Shown: piece by piece, positions 2-27,334 of the stretch
Numbering within the stretch: position 1 is the stretch's first letter
How the letters are laid out: every line of letters begins with the position of its first letter
Assembly: GCA_013815355.1 (NCBI GenBank)
Contig: JACDGG010000008.1
Coordinates: 1 to 38,957 of the forward strand
Length of the DNA stretch: 38,957 bases
Reading direction: 5' to 3'
Source of the DNA: Solirubrobacterales bacterium
GTDB taxonomy: Bacteria > Actinomycetota > Thermoleophilia > Solirubrobacterales > Solirubrobacteraceae
The notes under the pieces: model-generated
The model's input: only the letters and a program-made list of their open reading frames with translations
Databases searched by the model: none
What the model was told of the DNA's origin: nothing
Position numbers and translations under genes: made by a program

Positions 2-1633
2 ACCTGGGGCGAGCTGAGCGCCTGCGTCGCCCAGGCCGCGGGCGGGCTGCGCGCGCTCGGCGTGCAGCCCGGCGATCGCGTGGTCGCCTACATGCCGAAC
101 ATCGCTGAGACCTTGATCGCGTTCCTGGCGAGCGCGAGCGTCGGCGCGGTGTGGTCGAGCGCCGCGCCCGAGTTCGGGGCGCGCGCCGTGATCGACCGCT
201 TCGCGCAGATCGAGCCGAAGGTGCTCTTGACCGTCGACGGCTACCGCCACGGCGGCAAGGACTTCGACCGCGCGGCGAACGTCGGGGCGATCCTCGCGGA
301 GCTTCCGACGGTCGAGCACATCGTCGTGCTGGCATATCTCGACACCTCCCGCGAGGCGGGCGCGATCGCTCGGGGAGCGCTCGCCTGGGATGAGCTGCTC
401 GACCTCGACCCGCCCGCGCCTCAGAGCGCGGCGAGCTTCGAGCAGGTGCCCTTCGACCACCCGCTGTGGGTGCTCTACTCCTCGGGCACGACGGGGCTGC
501 CGAAGGCGATCGTCCAGAGCCAGGGCGGCATCCTGATCGAGCAGCTCAAGAAGCGCATGCACCTCGACCTGCGCGCGGGTGATCGCATGTTCTGGTTCAC
601 GACGACGGGCTGGATGATGTGGAACTTCCTCGTCGGCGCGCTGCACAGCGAGGCGGCGATTGTGCTGTATGACGGCAGCCCTGCACACCCCGACCTGGGG
701 GTGCTGTGGTCGCTCGCCGAGCGTGGAGGGATCACGTGCATGGGCCTGAGCGCGGGCCTGTTGGCGAGCACCGAGAAGGCCGGGGGGGCGCCGCCCCGCG
801 AATACGACCTGTCGGCGCTGCGCGCGATCGGCTCGACCGGCTCGCCGCTGGCCCCCGAGAGCTTCCGCTGGATCTATGAGCAGTTCGGCTCCGATCTGTG
901 GCTGTTCTCCACGAGTGGCGGCACCGACGTGTGCACCGCGTTCGTCGGCGGCTGCCCGCTGCTGCCCGTATACGAGGGCGAACTGCAGGCGCGTATGCTC
1001 GGCTGCGCGGTGCAGGCGTGGGATGAGCAGGGCAACAGCGTCACCGACGCGGTCGGCGAGCTCGTGATCACCGAGCCGATGCCCTCGATGCCGATCTACT
1101 TCGTGGGCGACCCCGGCGGCGAGCGTCTGCGGGAGAGCTATTTCGAGATGTTCCCGGGAGTCTGGCGCCACGGCGACTGGATTCGCATCACCCCGCGCGG
1201 CGGCGCGGTGATCTATGGGCGCTCGGACTCGACGATCAACCGGCAGGGTGTGCGCATGGGCACGAGTGAGATCTACCGCGCGGCTCACTCGCTGGAGCAG
1301 GTGCTCGACACGCTGGTCGTGGACGTGCCGAAGGGGGGAGGCGAAGGCGAGCTGTGGATGGTCCTGTTCGTCGTGCTCGCGCCGGGTGTCACCCTCCACG
1401 AGGAGCTGACCGCGCAGATCAAGCGCCGTATCCGCGAGGACTGCTCGCCGCGGCACGTTCCCAACGAGATTCGCCAGATCCAGGAGGTCCCGCGCACGCT
1501 CTCGGGCAAGGTGCTCGAGGTGCCGGTCAAGCGCATCCTGATGGGCGCGGCGCCGAGCGAGGCCGCGAGCATCGACTCGCTCGCCAACCCCGCCTCGCTG
1601 GACTACTTCGTGGAGCTCGCGAAGAGCCTCTAA
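2..1633 (+). CDS. aacS: Acetoacetyl-CoA synthetase, 5'-truncated by window edge
   Basis: This ATP-dependent ligase activates acetoacetate to acetoacetyl-CoA in the cytosol, feeding ketone-body or PHB-derived carbon into lipid synthesis. The open frame runs in from the window edge, so about 543 codons of a family usually near 650 residues are present and the N-terminus is missing. The AMP-binding P-loop YSSGTTGLPK lies near residue 159 of the visible part. It is followed by the tryptophan-rich FWFTTTGWMMWN segment typical of the acetoacetate branch rather than plain acetyl-CoA synthetase. The C-terminal PRTLSGKVLEVPVKR carries the adenylation lysine. The gene ends 5 bp before a convergent acyl-CoA dehydrogenase. 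The family call is firm. Substrate preference is inferred from these motifs. Confidence 0.93.
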   Translation, partial: TWGELSACVAQAAGGLRALGVQPGDRVVAYMPNIAETLIAFLASASVGAVWSSAAPEFGARAVIDRFAQIEPKVLLTVDGYRHGGKDFDRAANVGAILAELPTVEHIVVLAYLDTSREAGAIARGALAWDELLDLDPPAPQSAASFEQVPFDHPLWVLYSSGTTGLPKAIVQSQGGILIEQLKKRMHLDLRAGDRMFWFTTTGWMMWNFLVGALHSEAAIVLYDGSPAHPDLGVLWSLAERGGITCMGLSAGLLASTEKAGGAPPREYDLSALRAIGSTGSPLAPESFRWIYEQFGSDLWLFSTSGGTDVCTAFVGGCPLLPVYEGELQARMLGCAVQAWDEQGNSVTDAVGELVITEPMPSMPIYFVGDPGGERLRESYFEMFPGVWRHGDWIRITPRGGAVIYGRSDSTINRQGVRMGTSEIYRAAHSLEQVLDTLVVDVPKGGGEGELWMVLFVVLAPGVTLHEELTAQIKRRIREDCSPRHVPNEIRQIQEVPRTLSGKVLEVPVKRILMGAAPSEAASIDSLANPASLDYFVELAKSL

Positions 1634-1638
1634 GTCGA

Positions 1639-2796
1639 CTACAGCCCCATCGAACGGCCGACGATCTCCTTCATGATCTCGTTGGCGCCTCCGTAGATGC
1701 GCGTCACGCGCGCGTCGGCGAAGGCGCGGGCGATCGGGTACTCGAGCATGTAGCCGTAACCGCCGAACAGCTGCAGGCAGCGGTCGATGACGCGTCCCTG
1801 CAGATCCGTGCACCACCACTTCGCCATCGCGGCGTCCTCGGGGGTCAGCTCGCCGGCATTCAAAGCCTCCGCGCAGCGGTCGATGTAGACGCGGCCGATC
1901 TCGATTTCGCTGCGCACCTCGGCGAGCGTGAAGCGCGAGGCCTGGAAGGAGCCGATCGACTGTCCGAAGGCCTTGCGCTCGAGCACGTACTCGAGCGTCC
2001 AGCCGAGCGCGGCCTCGGCCGCCGCCACCGCGGAGGCGGCGATCGAGAGACGCTCCTGGGGCAGGTTGGAGACGAGGTAGAGAAACCCCTGGCCCTCCTC
2101 GCCGAGCAGGTTCTCGACCGGCACGCGCACGTCGAGGAAGGACAGCTCGGCGGTGTCCTGGGAGTGCTGGCCGATCTTCTCGAGGTTTCGCCCGCGCTCG
2201 AAGCCCTCCATGCCGCGCTCGAGGATCAGCAGGCTGATGCCGCGGTGGCGCTCGGATGGATTGGTCTTCACGGCGGTGATCACGAGATCGGCGTTGATGC
2301 CGTTGGTGATGAACGTCTTGGCGCCGTTGAGGAGGAAGTGATCGCCGTCGCGCTTGGCCGTGGTGGACATCGCAGCGAGGTCTGAGCCGATGCCCGGCTC
2401 GGTCATCGCCACGGCCGTGATCAGCTCGCCGGCTGCGATCCCCGCCAGCCAGCGCTCGCGCTGTGCGGCGTCACAATAGCTCAGGAAGTAGGGCAGGCAG
2501 ATGTCGTTGTGCAGCGTGATGCCCAGGCCGAAGCCGCCGACGGCTGCGCGTTGGGTCTCCTCGCCGATCACGAGGTTCAGGCGGAAGTCCTCGGCACCCG
2601 CACCGCCGTGCTCCTCCGGCACGGCCATCCCCGTGAAGCCTCCGGCGCCGGCTCGGGCGAAGACCTCGCGCGGCACGAGACCCTCGCGCTCCCACTGTCC
2701 GTAGCGGTTCTCCTCGCCGATCACCTCGCGCTCGAGGAACGTGCGAAAGCTCGCACGGAAGTCTTCGTGGAGATCCTCGTAGAGCCTGCGGCGCAT
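1639..2796 (-). CDS. Acyl-CoA dehydrogenase, long-chain (ACADL) type
   Basis: This 385-residue flavoenzyme should oxidise acyl-CoA to trans-2-enoyl-CoA and pass electrons to ETF. The FAD/substrate segment MTEPGIGSDLAAM, the KAFGQSIGSFQ helix and the C-terminal LFGGYGYMLEYPIAR and YGGANEIMKEIV blocks are all present. At the site where medium-chain enzymes have the catalytic Glu (YEG), this protein has Gly (YGG). That is as in long-chain and isovaleryl-type enzymes, whose base lies in the helix before KAFG. The ATG at 2796 is preceded by a TAGGCT -10 box at 7 nt, which overlaps the stop codon of the upstream cyclopropane synthase, so it probably has its own leaderless promoter. Family membership is certain. 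Chain-length specificity is an inference. Confidence 0.93.
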   Translation of the reverse strand: MRRRLYEDLHEDFRASFRTFLEREVIGEENRYGQWEREGLVPREVFARAGAGGFTGMAVPEEHGGAGAEDFRLNLVIGEETQRAAVGGFGLGITLHNDICLPYFLSYCDAAQRERWLAGIAAGELITAVAMTEPGIGSDLAAMSTTAKRDGDHFLLNGAKTFITNGINADLVITAVKTNPSERHRGISLLILERGMEGFERGRNLEKIGQHSQDTAELSFLDVRVPVENLLGEEGQGFLYLVSNLPQERLSIAASAVAAAEAALGWTLEYVLERKAFGQSIGSFQASRFTLAEVRSEIEIGRVYIDRCAEALNAGELTPEDAAMAKWWCTDLQGRVIDRCLQLFGGYGYMLEYPIARAFADARVTRIYGGANEIMKEIVGRSMGL

Positions 2797-2809
2797 GCGC
2801 CGGAGCCTA
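2797..2809 (-). promoter_or_regulatory. Leaderless-type -10 box of the acyl-CoA dehydrogenase gene
   Basis: On the minus strand TAGGCT (2809-2804) lies 7 nt before the ATG, the spacing expected if transcription starts at the start codon. The box includes the TAG stop of the preceding gene. No convincing ribosome-binding site is visible. Confidence 0.55.
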
Positions 2810-4114
2810 CAGCGCCCCCAGCGGCTCGGCGCGGTTGGCGGGCTTGGCCAGCAGCAGCTGGATGTCCTGGATGCGCCGCTCGCGAAAGCCGCCCTCGCAG
2901 TAGCTCAGGTAGAGCTCCCACAGCCGGCGGAAGCGCTCGTCGTAGCCGAGCTCGGCGACTCGCTCGGTGCGCGCCAGGAAGCGCTCGCGCCAAAGCGCGA
3001 GCGTGGTGGCGTAGTGGGCGGTGATGTCCTCCAGGTGGACCTGGCGCAGATCGGTGGCGCGCGCCAGCGAGCGCGAGATGATCTCCATCGAGGGCAGGCA
3101 GCCGCCGGGGAAGATGTGGGTGTTGATGAAGCTGCGCCCGCCCTTCTCGACCTCATAGGCGCGGTCGTCGATCGTGATCGCCTGCAGGAGCATCGCGCCG
3201 TCCTGCACCAGGAGCTCTGAGCAGCAGCGGAAGAACGTCTCGAAGTACTGCCAGCCGACCGCCTCGATCATCTCGATCGAGACGAGCTTGTCATAGGTGC
3301 CGCTGAGGTGGCGATAGTCCTCGAGCAGCAAGGTCACGCGGTCCTCGACGCCGGCTTCGCGCACGGCCTGCGAGGCATAGGCATGCTGCTCGCGGGAGAT
3401 CGTCGTGGTGGTCACGCGGCAGCCGTAGCGCGTGGCGGCGTACACCGCGAAGCCGCCCCAGCCGGTGCCGATCTCGAGCACGTGGTCCTCGGGTCCGAGC
3501 GCGAGCTTCGCGCAGACGCGCTCGAGCTTGGCCAGCGAGGCCTCTTCGAGGCTCGCCTCGGGGGTCTCGAAGACCGCGCACGAGTACATCATCGTCGGGT
3601 CGAGGAACAGCGCAAAGAGCTCGTTGCCGAGGTCGTAGTGGGCGGCGATCTGCCTGCGCGAGCGTCCCGGTGTGTTGCGCGCCAGCCAGCGCAGCCAGCG
3701 CTGCAATGGGATCAGCACGGGAGCCGTACGCCGGCGCAGCGTGTCGAGCTTGCCGACGTTCAGCGCCGCGATTCGCGTCAGCGAGACGAGATCCTCGCAC
3801 TCCCACATGGCGCGCATGTAGGACTCACAGAGGCCGACGCTGCCACGCAGGAGCTGGCGATAGAAGCGCGGCGAGCGCACCTCGATCAGGGCGCTCAGTG
3901 GGCGCTCGTCGAGCAGCTCACCGAACTCGAGACGCTCTTTGTCCTCGATCAGCACGAGCTGCCCGCCGCGCAGCCCGCCGAGCAGGCGCAGCACGATGCG
4001 GCGAGCGAGGCGGTCGCCGGGACGCTGAAACCAGCGTCGAGACGCGCCCGCCGGCGCGTGCGTCGCGGACGGCGCCGGCGCCATTGTCGGGGCGGTGATC
4101 TCCTGGGTGCTCAT
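2807..4114 (-). CDS. cfa: Cyclopropane-fatty-acyl-phospholipid synthase family methyltransferase
   Basis: This 435-residue SAM-dependent enzyme of the CFA/mycolic-acid cyclopropane synthase family methylates or cyclopropanates double bonds of membrane phospholipid acyl chains. The SAM site VLEIGTGWGG lies at residues 212-221. It is preceded by AAHYDLGNELFALFLDP and followed by IEMIEAVGWQYFETFF and GGRSFINTHIFPGG, all hallmark CFA blocks. The start ATG overlaps the stop of the DUF1365 gene in an ATGA overlap, so the two are translationally coupled. Together with the upstream FAD oxidoreductase it forms a recurrent lipid-modification cluster. The exact product (cyclopropane, methyl-branched or furan precursor) cannot be told from sequence. 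Confidence 0.94.
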   Translation of the reverse strand: MSTQEITAPTMAPAPSATHAPAGASRRWFQRPGDRLARRIVLRLLGGLRGGQLVLIEDKERLEFGELLDERPLSALIEVRSPRFYRQLLRGSVGLCESYMRAMWECEDLVSLTRIAALNVGKLDTLRRRTAPVLIPLQRWLRWLARNTPGRSRRQIAAHYDLGNELFALFLDPTMMYSCAVFETPEASLEEASLAKLERVCAKLALGPEDHVLEIGTGWGGFAVYAATRYGCRVTTTTISREQHAYASQAVREAGVEDRVTLLLEDYRHLSGTYDKLVSIEMIEAVGWQYFETFFRCCSELLVQDGAMLLQAITIDDRAYEVEKGGRSFINTHIFPGGCLPSMEIISRSLARATDLRQVHLEDITAHYATTLALWRERFLARTERVAELGYDERFRRLWELYLSYCEGGFRERRIQDIQLLLAKPANRAEPLGAL

Positions 4115-4893
4115 CGTGAGGCGGCGGGGCGGCTCGGGTGCGGGAAGTAGCTGGCGCCGCGCAGCCGCAGGCGCAGCGCGTGCCCGTAGATGCGCGCCAT
4201 GATCCGCGGCGTGAGCAGCGGGTAGCGCACGAGCGCGCGGGCGAGCGCGGTGGGGCTGATCTCGCGCCGGCGCAGGGAGAGCGTCGCATCGAAGACGCTC
4301 TCGCCGCTCGGACGCTCGGAGGCGATGTGCACGGCGAGCTGCTCGTCGGGCTCGGTAAGGCGCCAGCGGTAGGTGTGCTCCATGCCCATCAAGGGCGAGA
4401 CGTGCAGCTGCTTTGCAAAGCTCGCGCTCATCAGCGCGGTGCTGCCGTGGTCGGCGGTCTCCGAGACGGCCATCACGTAGCTGTGGCGCTCACCCCACGG
4501 GGTGTTTGTGACCTCGGCGACGACGGCTGCGACCTCGCCCGCGCGCGGCCCGGAGGCGGCGTAGCAGTAGTAGAAGCTGACGGGGTTGAAGCAGTGACCG
4601 AAGGTGCGCATGTGCGTGAGCAGGCGGATCGGCCCGTCGGCCTGCACGCCCACGCGTTCGCGCACGAGCTCGCGAACCGACTGCACGAGTGCTACTGCGG
4701 GGTCGCCGAGGTAGTCGCTGCGGCGAAACCAGGCCAGCGCGGGTCGCCGCGCCGACCACAGCCAGCGCCCGTCGAAGAGCTCGGGCAGCTCGTCGAGGTC
4801 GAGGTAGGCCATGTACAGCGGGTAGCTGAACTCGTCGCTCAGCTCCGCACGGCGGCGGTGGCGCACGCGTCCTTCGTACAGGCAGCTGTTCAC
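4111..4893 (-). CDS. DUF1365 family protein
   Basis: This 260-residue DUF1365 protein begins MNSCLYEGRVRHRR and contains the conserved FGHCFNPVSFYYCY block and MEHTYRWRLTEP. The family has no settled biochemical role that I can cite with certainty. It is repeatedly found between an FAD-dependent amine-oxidase-like protein and a CFA-type methyltransferase, as here. That points to a role in the same lipid modification. The GTG start at 4893 overlaps the stop of the FAD gene (GTGA) and the stop overlaps the start of cfa (ATGA), so all three genes are probably one transcript with coupled translation. No signal peptide or clear membrane helix is seen. Confidence 0.9.
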   Translation of the reverse strand: MNSCLYEGRVRHRRRAELSDEFSYPLYMAYLDLDELPELFDGRWLWSARRPALAWFRRSDYLGDPAVALVQSVRELVRERVGVQADGPIRLLTHMRTFGHCFNPVSFYYCYAASGPRAGEVAAVVAEVTNTPWGERHSYVMAVSETADHGSTALMSASFAKQLHVSPLMGMEHTYRWRLTEPDEQLAVHIASERPSGESVFDATLSLRRREISPTALARALVRYPLLTPRIMARIYGHALRLRLRGASYFPHPSRPAASR

Positions 4894-6137
4894 AGGCTCA
4901 CCGCGAAGGGCTCGCAGGCGCGCAGCGCGCTGCGCACGCCGTCCTCGTGAAAGCCCCAGCCCCAGTAGGCGCCGCAGTAGTGCGTGCGCTGGGCGTGGCC
5001 GCTGATCTCTGCATGGCGTGCCTGCGCCGATACGCCGGCGGGCGTGTAGACGGGGTGCGAGTAGGCGATCGTGCGGATGATCCTCGCAGGATCGATTGCC
5101 TCGGTGCGGTTGAGCGTCACGCAGTAGTCCTCCTGCGCATGCAGGCGCTGGAGGTGGTTCATGTAGTAGGTGACAGTGCTCAACGGCTTCGGTTCCTCGA
5201 GCAGATGGAAGTTCCAGGCCGCGCGGGCGGCGCGCCGGCGTGGCAGCAGGCTGCTGTCCGTGTGCAGGACCGCCTCGTTGGCCTGGTAGGGAATCGCGCC
5301 AAGCAGTTGCGACTCCCGTGGCGAGGGGTCCTCGAGCATTGCCAGGGCCTGGTCGGAGTGCGTGGCGATCACGACCTGGTCGTAGCGCTCGGGCTCTGAG
5401 CCTGTGCTCGTCACCGTGACATGATCGGCGCCGCGCGCGATCGCCTGCACCGGCGTGTTCAGGCGGATGCGCTCGCGGAATGGGGCGATCAGGGCATCGA
5501 CATAGCGTGCCGAGCCGCCGCGGATCGTCGACCAGTTGGGACGGTCGCGGAAGCCCAGCATCCCGTGATTGGCGAAGAACTCAGCCATGAAGCGCACGGG
5601 AAAAGCATCCATCTGGCGCGGGTCGGCCGACCACACGGCCGATGCCTGCGGCACGATCAGGCGCTCGATGAATCCGTGCGAGAAGCGGTGGCGCTCGAGG
5701 AAATCGCCGAGCGAGCCCTCATCGCCGCCGTCACCGTCGAGCATCGCGCGCAGCATCCGGTTGAAGCGCACCATGTCCACGAGCATCCGCTGGAAGGAGG
5801 CGCTGATCAGGTTGCGGGGTTGGCAGAAGATTCCTCGCGGTGTGCCCGCGTACTCGAAGTCCTGCGCCTCGCCCTTGACCGAGAAGCTCATGTGCGTCGG
5901 CTGGCGCGCGACGGCGAGCCGGTCGAGCAGGCGCGTGAAGTTGGGATAGTTGCGGTCGTTCATCACGATGAAGCCGGTGTCGATGTGATGGGAGCCGAAG
6001 GGCGTATCGACACGGACGGTGTTCGTATGCCCGCCCGCGTAGGCGCCTGCCTCATAGATCACGATCTCGTGCTCGCGGTGCAGCAGGTGCGCGGCCACGA
6101 GTCCCGAGACGCCGGCGCCGACGATCGCGATCCTCAC
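4890..6137 (-). CDS. FAD/NAD(P)-binding oxidoreductase (amine-oxidase fold)
   Basis: This 415-residue flavoprotein begins MRIAIVGAGVSGL, a Rossmann GxGxxG for FAD, followed by YEAGAYAGGHTNTV. The C-terminal block YCGAYWGWGFHEDGVRSA is typical of the amine-oxidase-like proteins encoded beside DUF1365 and CFA synthase. It likely desaturates or otherwise oxidises a fatty-acyl chain before or after methylation, but that is inferred from context. A GTG start at 6137 is chosen because it gives the expected N-terminal dinucleotide-binding fold. The start overlaps the end of a 25-codon upstream frame. Regulation may involve the ECF-like promoter at 6227-6252. Confidence 0.9.
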   Translation of the reverse strand: MRIAIVGAGVSGLVAAHLLHREHEIVIYEAGAYAGGHTNTVRVDTPFGSHHIDTGFIVMNDRNYPNFTRLLDRLAVARQPTHMSFSVKGEAQDFEYAGTPRGIFCQPRNLISASFQRMLVDMVRFNRMLRAMLDGDGGDEGSLGDFLERHRFSHGFIERLIVPQASAVWSADPRQMDAFPVRFMAEFFANHGMLGFRDRPNWSTIRGGSARYVDALIAPFRERIRLNTPVQAIARGADHVTVTSTGSEPERYDQVVIATHSDQALAMLEDPSPRESQLLGAIPYQANEAVLHTDSSLLPRRRAARAAWNFHLLEEPKPLSTVTYYMNHLQRLHAQEDYCVTLNRTEAIDPARIIRTIAYSHPVYTPAGVSAQARHAEISGHAQRTHYCGAYWGWGFHEDGVRSALRACEPFAVSL

Positions 6138-24491: not shown

Positions 24492-25505
24492 TCAGGAGAT
24501 GACGCTGAGCGCGTCGGGCACGACGGAGTAACGCGCTTCGGTCACCTCGCCGAGGTAGTCGCCGTCGACCTGCAGCGGCAGCGTACGCCCGTCGATCGAG
24601 CGCACGGTCATCTCGCTGAGGTTCGACAAACCGCTGACTTTGCGATGCCCGGCGACGCGCGCCCGCGGCGAGAACGCGCGCCAGGCGATCGAGGGCATCG
24701 ACAGCAGCGTGGCGCTGTGCAGCACGCCGCCGGTGAGCGAGCCGGAGTCCAGGGCGCCGCCATCGGTGATCTCGATCGGGCGGTTCTGGAAGTAGGTGAA
24801 GGGCGAGCCGTTCTGCACGACCGCGGTGACGCCCTGAAGGCGCTTGGTGCCCGCTTGCACCTCCAGGCGGGGAGGGCTCACGAGGTAGCGGCGCATGTAC
24901 GTCGAGACGGCCACCCAGGTGAAGTAGTAGGCGCCGAGGCGCGCCTTCAGACGGGGGTTGGAGTCGACGCGCTGCACGACGCTCGCATCCAGGCCGAGGC
25001 CCGAGGCGAACGTGAAGTAGCGCCCGTTGACGAGACCCAGATCGACACGGCGCGGCTGCCAGTCATCGGCCATCGCCAGCAGGTGCTCGGTCGCGTCCAC
25101 GACGTCGCCGGGAATTCCGAGCATCTTGCCGAACACGTTGGCCGAGCCGCCCGGCAGGCAGCACAGCGGCGTGGGGGAGCCGAGCAGGCCGTTGGCGGCT
25201 TCGTTGACGGTGCCATCGCCGCCGAAGGCCACGACGACGTCATAGCCCTCGTGCGCGGCCTCGCGGCAGAGCTCGGTCGCGTGGCCGCGAGCCTCGGTGT
25301 CGACGGCGTCGACCTCGAAGCGGCCCTGAAGCGCATAGACGACGAGATGGCGCAGGCGGTCAGAGACAGTCGTGGCGTAGGGATTGACGATGATCAGCAT
25401 GCGCCGACGTGTCGCCGGCGATGCGAAGCGGAACGGCTCGGCGCCCTCGGCGGTGCGCTCGTCGAGCTGAGGTGTGGTGGTGCTCATCGGTGTGGTGGTG
25501 CTCAT
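24492..25505 (-). CDS. Diacylglycerol/sphingosine kinase-like lipid kinase
   Basis: This 337-residue protein of the DagK/YegS/LCB5 family should phosphorylate a lipid alcohol such as diacylglycerol, recycling it to phosphatidic acid. The ATP-binding fold shows IVNPYATTVSDRLRH, the glycine loop FGGDGTVNEAANGL and LPGGSANVFGKML. The C-terminal beta-sandwich ends in QVDGDYLGEVTEARY. The N-terminus holds an exact-type tandem duplication of the start region (MSTTTP MSTTTP), so either ATG 25505 or ATG 25487 may be used. The true lipid substrate is not evident. Confidence 0.88.
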   Translation of the reverse strand: MSTTTPMSTTTPQLDERTAEGAEPFRFASPATRRRMLIIVNPYATTVSDRLRHLVVYALQGRFEVDAVDTEARGHATELCREAAHEGYDVVVAFGGDGTVNEAANGLLGSPTPLCCLPGGSANVFGKMLGIPGDVVDATEHLLAMADDWQPRRVDLGLVNGRYFTFASGLGLDASVVQRVDSNPRLKARLGAYYFTWVAVSTYMRRYLVSPPRLEVQAGTKRLQGVTAVVQNGSPFTYFQNRPIEITDGGALDSGSLTGGVLHSATLLSMPSIAWRAFSPRARVAGHRKVSGLSNLSEMTVRSIDGRTLPLQVDGDYLGEVTEARYSVVPDALSVIS

Positions 25506-25508
25506 CGC
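25473..25508 (-). repeat. Tandem 18-bp duplication covering the kinase start codon
   Basis: TGTGGTGGTGCTCATCGG (25473-25490) is repeated at 25491-25508 with one mismatch at its last base. Each unit contains an in-frame ATG on the minus strand, giving two alternative starts six codons apart. Confidence 0.8.
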
Positions 25509-25637: not shown

Positions 25638-25733
25638 TACACATCGAGAGGGGTGGAGGGCCTGGCCCTGCGAAACCCCGGCAACCACCGCCAAGTCACA
25701 GGCGGGAACGGTGCCAATTCCAGGTGATGTGTG
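25638..25733 (+). promoter_or_regulatory. SAM-I-like riboswitch upstream of thrC
   Basis: The conserved SAM-I core is present: GAGAGGGGTGGAGGG, CTGGCCC, GAAACC, GGCAACC and GGTGCCAATTCC in the right order. P1 pairs CACATC (25640-25645) with GATGTG (25726-25731). P3 is CCGCC/GGCGG. No P4 helix is visible between AATTCC and P1, and that 3' part looks more like the SAM-IV class. Downstream, GTGTGGC (25729-25735) can pair with GCCACAC (25753-25759), which would compete with P1. There is no U tract, and the thrC ribosome site AAGGAG is at 25783-25788, so control of translation is more likely than termination. That switching mechanism is inference. Confidence 0.88.
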
Positions 25734-25796
25734 GCCGGGCTTCGCGCTCTTCGCCACACGTGACAAGGCGAAGGTTATAGCGAAGGAGCCCCCAAA

Positions 25797-27059
25797 ATGG
25801 CTGTAAGTCATCTTCAGTGCAAGGAGTGCAAGGCCGAGTATCCGCTCGAGGCGCTCTACGTCTGCGATCAGTGCTTCGGACCGCTCGAGGTCGTCTATGA
25901 CCACAGCGCCAGCACCGGCGACGTCGCCGAGCTGCGCCGCCGTATCCAGGGCGGTCCCCAGAACATCTGGCGCTACGCGGACTTCCTGCCGCTCGCGGGC
26001 GGCCCTCCCGGGCCCTCCGGGCGCTTGGCCTCACGTGTCGGGCTGCCGGCTGGCTGCACGCCGCTGATCCGCGCCGACCGGCTCGCCGAGCGCCTCGGCC
26101 TGCGCGAGGTGTGGGTCAAGAACGACGCGGCCAACCCGACTCACTCCTTCAAGGACCGTGTCGTCTCGGTCGCCGTGACGCGTGCGCGCGAGCTCGGCTT
26201 CGAGACGATCGCCTGCGCCTCCACGGGCAACCTCGCCAACTCCGTCGCCGCCCACGGCGCGGCGCTCGGCATGGACTCCTATGTCTTCATCCCGGCCGAC
26301 CTCGAGGAGCAGAAGATCCTCGCGACCGGCATCTACGGGACGAACCTCGTGGGCGTCGAAGGCAACTACGACGACGTCAACCGCCTCTGCACCGAGCTGT
26401 GCGCGGAGCGCGAGTGGGCGTTTGTGAACATCAACCTGCGCCCCTACTACGCCGAGGGTTCCAAGACGCTGGCCTTCGAGATTGCCGAGCAGCTCGGCTG
26501 GGAGCTGCCCGATCGCTGCATCGTGCCCGTCGCCTCCGGCTCGCTGTTCACGAAAATCGCCCGCGGCTTTGAGGAATGGACCGAGCTCGGCCTGCTCGAC
26601 GGCGAGCTGCCGCGCATGAACGGCGCGCAGGCCGAGGGCTGCTCGCCCGTGGCCAGCGCCTACGCCGCTGGAGCGGACGTCTGCCGTCCGGTCAAGCCGA
26701 GCACGATCGCCAAGTCGCTTGCGATCGGCAACCCCGCCGATGGGCCCTACGCGCTCGACCTCGCACGCCGCAGCGGCGGCGGCGTCGACGCCGTCAGCGA
26801 CGATGAGATTCGCGCCGCCATCAAGCTGCTGGCCGAGACGACAGGCGTGTTCACCGAGACCGCCGGCGGCGTCACCACGGCCGTGCTGGCAAAGCTCGCC
26901 GCCCGCGGTGAGATCGACCCCGACGAGCGCGTCGTGCTCGTCATCACCGGCGAGGGCCTGAAGACGCTGGATGCGGTGCGTGGCACGTTCGAGACGCGCA
27001 CGATCGCGCCGAGCGTCGAGGCCTTCGAGGCCGGTGTGCGTCAGACGGTGAGCGTCTGA
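25797..27059 (+). CDS. thrC: Threonine synthase (PLP-dependent)
   Basis: ThrC converts O-phosphohomoserine to threonine. The 420-residue protein opens with a zinc ribbon (Cys8, Cys11, Cys23, Cys26; CKECKAEYP and CDQCFGPLE), as in actinobacterial and Thermus-type enzymes. The PLP lysine is Lys119 in NPTHSFKDR. CASTGNLANSVAAHGAALG and VPVASGSLFTKIARGF follow. A good ribosome site AAGGAG is 8 nt before the ATG. Two things are odd: a SAM riboswitch in the leader, and a CysO-like sulfur carrier overlapping its stop by 1 bp. Both raise the possibility that the enzyme, or a branch of it, serves homocysteine formation. The ThrC family call itself is firm. Confidence 0.93.
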   Translation: MAVSHLQCKECKAEYPLEALYVCDQCFGPLEVVYDHSASTGDVAELRRRIQGGPQNIWRYADFLPLAGGPPGPSGRLASRVGLPAGCTPLIRADRLAERLGLREVWVKNDAANPTHSFKDRVVSVAVTRARELGFETIACASTGNLANSVAAHGAALGMDSYVFIPADLEEQKILATGIYGTNLVGVEGNYDDVNRLCTELCAEREWAFVNINLRPYYAEGSKTLAFEIAEQLGWELPDRCIVPVASGSLFTKIARGFEEWTELGLLDGELPRMNGAQAEGCSPVASAYAAGADVCRPVKPSTIAKSLAIGNPADGPYALDLARRSGGGVDAVSDDEIRAAIKLLAETTGVFTETAGGVTTAVLAKLAARGEIDPDERVVLVITGEGLKTLDAVRGTFETRTIAPSVEAFEAGVRQTVSV

Positions 27060-27334
27060 TGTCCGTCACGGTGAAGATCCCCACGCAGCTGCGCGCGGCG
27101 GCCGGGGGAGAGGCCGAAGCCTCGCTCGACGGCGCGACCGTGCAGGAGGTGCTCGACGGCCTGTTCGACCGCTTCGAGGAGCTGCGCGCGCGCATCTCCG
27201 ATGAGGACGGCTCGTTGCGGCGCTTCGTCAACGTGTATCTCGCGGGCGAAGACATCCGATTCCTCGACGGGCTCGCCACACCCGTCAAGGACGGCTCGGA
27301 GCTGACGATCCTGCCCGCCGTCGCCGGGGGCTAA
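27059..27334 (+). CDS. cysO: CysO/ThiS/MoaD-family sulfur carrier protein
   Basis: This 91-residue ubiquitin-fold carrier ends in the essential diglycine (ILPAVAGG), where a C-terminal thiocarboxylate would form. The blocks VTVKIPTQLR, LRRFVNVYLAGEDIRFLDGL and the VAGG end strongly resemble mycobacterial CysO, which donates sulfur to CysM for cysteine synthesis. Here there is no cysM or mec gene beside it. Instead its ATG overlaps the thrC stop as TGATG, so it is under the same SAM riboswitch. Its partner PLP enzyme may be ThrC-like, or it may serve a cysM elsewhere in the genome. Confidence 0.87.
   Translation: MSVTVKIPTQLRAAAGGEAEASLDGATVQEVLDGLFDRFEELRARISDEDGSLRRFVNVYLAGEDIRFLDGLATPVKDGSELTILPAVAGG

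Follow-up and report, generated by a model that had tools for sequence, protein, structure and literature searches.

The question raised by this locus is why a SAM riboswitch should stand in front of a gene annotated as threonine synthase. The locus lies in the window, i.e., the whole stretch of 38,957 nucleotides from a Solirubrobacterales bacterium that was analysed, and was taken in a preliminary description as a SAM-I-like riboswitch without P4 in unusual control of thrC, with a 3' side resembling SAM-IV and an alternative helix that competes with P1 close to the ribosome site. The likeness to SAM-I, the missing P4 and the competing helix were all recovered here; the resemblance to SAM-IV and threonine synthase as the target were not. 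The best explanation, to which a probability of about 0.86 is given, is that a metM-metO operon of a Thermoleophilia bacterium (probably of the Solirubrobacteraceae) is under a SAM-I riboswitch without P4 acting as a translational switch, and that the product would be homocysteine.

The aptamer consists of the following parts:

25638-25733, plus strand: SAM-I riboswitch aptamer without P4 (RF00162, 66.2 bits; no RF01725 or RF00634 match)
25638-25645 and 25726-25733, plus strand: the two sides of P1, from the RF00162 alignment
25680-25686, plus strand: core element GGCAACC
25710-25721, plus strand: core element GGTGCCAATTCC
25722-25725, plus strand: linker AGGT at the usual place of P4

In the cmscan search of the window, the RF00162 (SAM-I) model was matched completely (model positions 1-108, E 2e-13), and this was the sole match above cut-off (44.4 bits, the gathering cut-off of RF00162); it was reproduced when the short stretch was rescanned. 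The match is far beyond chance, and the window element is the only one above the RF00162 cut-off in its own genome. As in other SAM-I (S-box) riboswitches, the P1-P2-P3 core is present with GGCAACC and GGUGCC; P1, P2 with its internal turn, P3 and the core elements all aligned, and the P2-loop and P3 consensus is intact. Among the 66 distinct aptamers compared, each of P1 pairs 4-8 is of a standard type in 65 or 66. Unlike the usual SAM-I aptamer, that of the window has no P4: only the four linker bases lie between the CC (25721) and P1, AATTCC being joined straight to P1 with no helix in between, and the P4 section of the model (19 positions) is reduced to one unaligned base. When the three Rfam covariance models were compared, RF00162 alone gave a significant match. 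RF01725 (SAM-I/IV) matched nothing in the own genome at E values up to 10, and RF00634 (SAM-IV) had none at the locus, its best score in the genome (14.7 bits, elsewhere) being noise. Membership in SAM-IV or SAM-I/IV was therefore rejected. P4 is treated here as typical of SAM-I and not as defining it, the P4-less copy being scored well above the cut-off by RF00162, and the element, a SAM-I riboswitch, would be expected to bind SAM. Upstream of it, at window positions 25475-25506, a short direct repeat (of the GTGTGGTGGTGCTCATC type) duplicates the start of a divergent lipid kinase gene (MSTTTPMSTTTP...), which gives this gene two possible start codons.

Between the aptamer and the start codon, the following elements of a putative expression platform were found:

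25727-25735 (ATGTGTGGC) and 25753-25761 (GCCACACGT), plus strand: predicted anti-P1 hairpin, competing with P1 (forced-helix folding; above-shuffle pairing in relatives)
25737-25743, plus strand: anti-Shine-Dalgarno strand GGGCTTC, predicted to pair with GGAGCCC at 25785-25791 (minimum free energy (MFE) and constrained folds)
25749-25773, plus strand: hairpin of CTTCGCC (25749-25755) and GGCGAAG (25767-25773), followed by no T run
25783-25788, plus strand: Shine-Dalgarno sequence AAGGAG, 8 nt ahead of the start codon (from the sequence)

The core of the anti-P1 hairpin is the helix GTGTGGC (25729-25735)/GCCACAC (25753-25759) of the preliminary description, and the pairing extends to 9 bp. Among 60 relatives, the 3' strand of P1 and the leader formed a mean of 6.3 Watson-Crick pairs vs 4.7 in shuffled leaders, and pairing was above shuffles at p<0.05 in 24 of them. 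Anti-Shine-Dalgarno pairing of like kind was seen by eye in three loci (L036, L038, and L148). The leader of the window has an MFE of -72.5 kcal/mol vs -62.1 kcal/mol for shuffles (z -2.5), and the MFE fold of 25638-25805 combines the aptamer, with P1, and a GGGCTTC/GGAGCCC hairpin covering the Shine-Dalgarno sequence. In ligand-free folding of growing transcripts, under an energy function that leaves the pseudoknot, the kink-turn and the ligand outside, the anti-P1 hairpin was favoured by 5.3, 8.5, 3.5, and 2.8 kcal/mol at 3' ends 25762, 25768, 25775, and 25780, respectively, and P1 with sequestration by 4.0 and 8.4 kcal/mol at 3' ends 25790 and 25797. When P1 was forced, 25785-25791 were unpaired at most 5%; when anti-P1 was forced, 25787-25791 were unpaired 79-84% and 25785-25786 (GG) only 25-29%, and the ribosome site was thus partly freed. 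Since the ligand-free MFE fold of the full-length leader is already the OFF fold, the ON state would depend on kinetics. No sigma-70 promoter was found when the leader was scanned.

These modelled folds suggest a kinetic, translational switch. At low SAM, the nascent leader would form the anti-P1 hairpin, trapping the strand that would otherwise mask the ribosome site, and metM-metO would be translated. At high SAM, P1 would be closed by the aptamer, and the freed strand would pair with the Shine-Dalgarno sequence and turn translation off. The OFF direction, the translational mode and the co-transcriptional timing are all predicted from folding. The riboswitch could instead act on transcription, with CTTCGCC/GGCGAAG as a weak or Rho-assisted terminator, since many relatives carry a clear hairpin and T run, i.e., an intrinsic terminator for transcription attenuation, at the matching position. 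However, the T run is absent both from the window and from its closest relatives (L035 and L036), and the ribosome site lies within a helix in the OFF fold. Transcriptional control at this locus is therefore considered unlikely, and the CTTCGCC/GGCGAAG hairpin is apparently a relic of the terminator of the relatives.

Two genes that follow the leader bear on the choice of target:

25797-27059, plus strand: metM-type gene, annotated thrC (PF00291; TIGR00260, 290 bits; clade; motifs)
27059-27334, plus strand: metO-type gene for a sulfur carrier of the ThiS/MoaD (ubiquitin-like) fold (PF02597, NF041918)

The first encodes a fold-type II PLP enzyme with an N-terminal zinc-ribbon-like segment (CxxC...CxxCFGPLE) and the motif NPTHSFKDRVV. 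ThrC-family genes were found in all 42 genomes searched, nearly all of which had two; one member of the same family with no riboswitch match (G194) had a single copy. In the own genome, the translations showed a separate, canonical thrC in a hom-thrC-thrB operon with homoserine dehydrogenase and homoserine kinase. The canonical ThrC scored about 354-369 bits against solved bacterial threonine synthases, and the window protein about 165-201 bits against its nearest solved structures, which are threonine synthases as well. In a tree of 36 rows, the MetM and ThrC1 clades stood apart on a long branch with 100/100 support each, and the window protein fell outside the ThrC group of the hom-thrC-thrB operons, in its own clade (100/100 support). 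Around the PLP lysine, 105 of 136 sequences read NPTHSFKDRVV; the riboswitch-linked group also bears N[VLM]RPYYAEGSKT and the CxxC...CxxCFGPLE segment, whereas canonical copies have NPTGSFKDRGM and SVNxFRxEGQKT instead. The window gene thus probably encodes an O-phosphohomoserine-dependent homocysteine synthase of the MetM type and not a threonine synthase. If so, SAM control here would be ordinary feedback on methionine synthesis, and the target would not be an odd one.

It could be argued that this gene codes for another genuine threonine synthase in addition to the canonical one, and that SAM balances O-phosphohomoserine between threonine and methionine. The score of the window protein with the threonine synthase equivalog TIGR00260 is above the cut-off of that model, its nearest solved structures point the same way, and a Microcystis relative, 51.6% identical to MetM, yielded threonine in vitro and was mainly assigned the activities of a threonine synthase and a deaminase (PMC12172450). 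However, a canonical ThrC is already encoded beside hom and thrB, repression of threonine synthesis by SAM would make little metabolic sense, and both the adjacent sulfur carrier and the absent homocysteine enzymes would be left unexplained. A second threonine synthase is accordingly regarded as quite improbable, and the MetM assignment is retained. A third, divergent MetM-like PLP enzyme was observed in G000 (contig C74, 4566-9795; L140, 67-5296), flanked by a paralogue of leucyl/methionyl-type tRNA synthetases and a circularly permuted ATP-grasp gene; a related PLP enzyme is present in G186 (L145), and the C74 locus is possibly a small biosynthetic cluster.

The start of metO overlaps the stop of metM, and the metO-type protein ends in ...PAVAGG. 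The known routes to homocysteine were searched for in the own genome, which is 91% complete and in which lone absences are weak evidence, and in four single-contig relatives (G017, G160, G093, and G103). None of the five had a full-length MetX or a PF01053 match (MetB, MetC, MetY, or MetZ) above 37 bits, and MetA and HcyBio were absent from all 22 genomes searched, these five included. The TIGR01392 matches (25-37 bits, about 60 residues) were rejected as MetX and the PF01053 matches of 24-37 bits as MetY, both being weak and assigned to other alpha/beta hydrolases and other fold-type I enzymes, respectively. MetH is full length in all five. With MetH present and the known homocysteine enzymes absent, homocysteine needs another source, and this gap would lend indirect support to its formation from O-phosphohomoserine by the window MetM. 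MetM would turn O-phosphohomoserine into homocysteine, from which MetH would then make methionine, and sulfur would probably be delivered as a thiocarboxylate on MetO. The ThiF-cysO-cysM-JAMM cluster on contig C259 of the own genome could possibly load MetO and release the product. Against this reading, several relatives have MetX and MetY alongside the riboswitch-metM pair.

A comparable design is known from CysM-CysO-Mec of Mycobacterium, where cysteine is made by a fold-type II PLP enzyme from a phosphorylated amino acid with a ThiS-fold carrier. The window system shares the enzyme type, the carrier fold and, as predicted, a phosphorylated substrate; its predicted product, however, is homocysteine and not cysteine. 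For the HcyS-MetY system of Wolinella, PMC5764234 cites Krishnamoorthy and Begley (2011). In this system, a protein thiocarboxylate is reportedly the sulfur donor for homocysteine. Such a donor is also proposed here, but the Wolinella route uses MetY (PF01053), which the genome of the window lacks. The closest precedent is Streptomyces MetM, which converts O-phosphohomoserine to homocysteine (Hasebe et al. 2024, AEM, doi 10.1128/aem.01247-24, as reported in PMC12172450); according to the same report, the gene is accompanied in S. albulus by metO, for the carrier, and preceded by a SAM riboswitch. As far as that report goes, the two systems agree in a ThrC-like enzyme adjoining a sulfur-carrier gene with a SAM riboswitch upstream, and differ in that the present one belongs to another class of Actinomycetota, has a P4-less aptamer and is known from sequence alone. 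The MetM-MetO mechanism is that of Hasebe et al. (2024), again as reported there; what is added here is the P4-less aptamer, the probably translational platform and the wider distribution. The nearest proxy for the S. albulus MetM is that of Nonomuraea (Actinomycetes), where riboswitch, metM and metO stand in the same order and the protein is 54% identical.

The distribution was examined by a scan of GTDB genomes with protein alignment, in which 80 loci were kept from at least 590 candidates. Among these 80, the carrier gene adjoins metM in 74 and a SAM-I riboswitch lies upstream of metM in 62. By their record labels, the kept loci belong to Actinomycetota (Thermoleophilia, Acidimicrobiales, Nitriliruptorales, and others), Aquificaceae, Nitrospira, Nitrospinota, Chloroflexi and Acidobacteria. 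Ten riboswitch-less loci (Nitrospira, Nitrospirae, Nitrospirales, or Nitrospinota) have relatives of ThiF and JAMM nearby; in the one locus read fully (L193 of Nitrospira, 1180-6128), the genes encode a CysM-like protein, ThiF, MetM, MetO, NIL, ThiF and JAMM, and the MetO tail (GGGHG), extending beyond GG, suggests proteolytic activation. In two Chloroflexi loci (L190 and L204), metM is likewise followed by a NIL gene; NIL also occurs in the DUF39 homocysteine route. The metM-carrier pair is present in the Aquificaceae loci L187 and L191, and a metagenome-assembled genome labelled Aquifex aeolicus (L222) has metM with no carrier found nearby. The loci of family f7 showed no carrier gene behind metM, which also speaks against the MetM-MetO reading. 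In L066-L074 (family f7 and others), a riboswitch precedes a metM-like gene with no carrier found directly downstream, and the leaders are mostly very short (20-44 nt where measured).

The absence of P4 extends beyond the window. RF00162 is present in 130 of 199 genomes of the class, and the spacing between GGTGC and the P1 end has a bimodal distribution, with 24-25 nt in copies without P4 and about 39-49 nt in copies with it. In the first set, 21 of the 66 distinct aptamers are without P4; these belong to families f1, f2 and f7. Of the loci fetched by protein, which form the second set, about 32 of 62 are P4-less, among them a large group labelled as or placed near Acidimicrobiales; this count was made manually, excludes three loci with the pattern inside P4 and overlaps the first set. 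P4-less copies also occur in other Actinomycetota. Copies with and without P4 are found side by side in the window's own family, ahead of the same gene. We conclude that within SAM-I, P4 was lost repeatedly. That the missing P4 and the leader mark a distinct class of SAM riboswitch, or an intermediate of SAM-I and SAM-IV (the latter being without P4 too; PMC6890682), is highly improbable, as the SAM-I model spans the aptamer from end to end at 66 bits with its P2-loop and P3 consensus kept, the SAM-IV and SAM-I/IV models give no match, and P4-bearing copies precede the same gene in the same family. A literature search for P4-less SAM-I aptamers, with subscription journals mostly outside its reach, returned nothing useful. 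In six leaders of the Acidimicrobial type (L178, L181-L184, and L192), P4-less SAM-I aptamers end within a few bases of the start codon, and the ribosome site is apparently inside or right after the 3' strand of P1 (GATGAGGA, then GG...), a simpler design.

Price et al. (2018) wrote that at least one route to homocysteine still awaited discovery, and gave Aquifex aeolicus, Pyrolobus fumarii and Acidimicrobium ferrooxidans as cases (PMC5764234). The Aquificaceae and Acidimicrobiales loci above come from relatives of such organisms. Taking the loci together, we lean, with some reserve, towards the reading that MetM-MetO is widespread, that it accounts for homocysteine in Aquificaceae and Acidimicrobiales, and that it is often under a SAM-I riboswitch that has repeatedly lost P4 and works with at least three kinds of platform, namely termination, masking of the ribosome site, and placement of that site in or beside P1. 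The P4-less copies also show that several lineages do without the P4 hairpin of SAM-I in nature. Based on the MetM assignment, the annotation 'thrC' would be misleading across a large bacterial group, and the apparent oddity of the riboswitch target would be explained. The arrangement also offers a direct test for the origin of homocysteine in Aquificaceae, Acidimicrobiales and many Actinomycetota, i.e., for the gap pointed out in PMC5764234.
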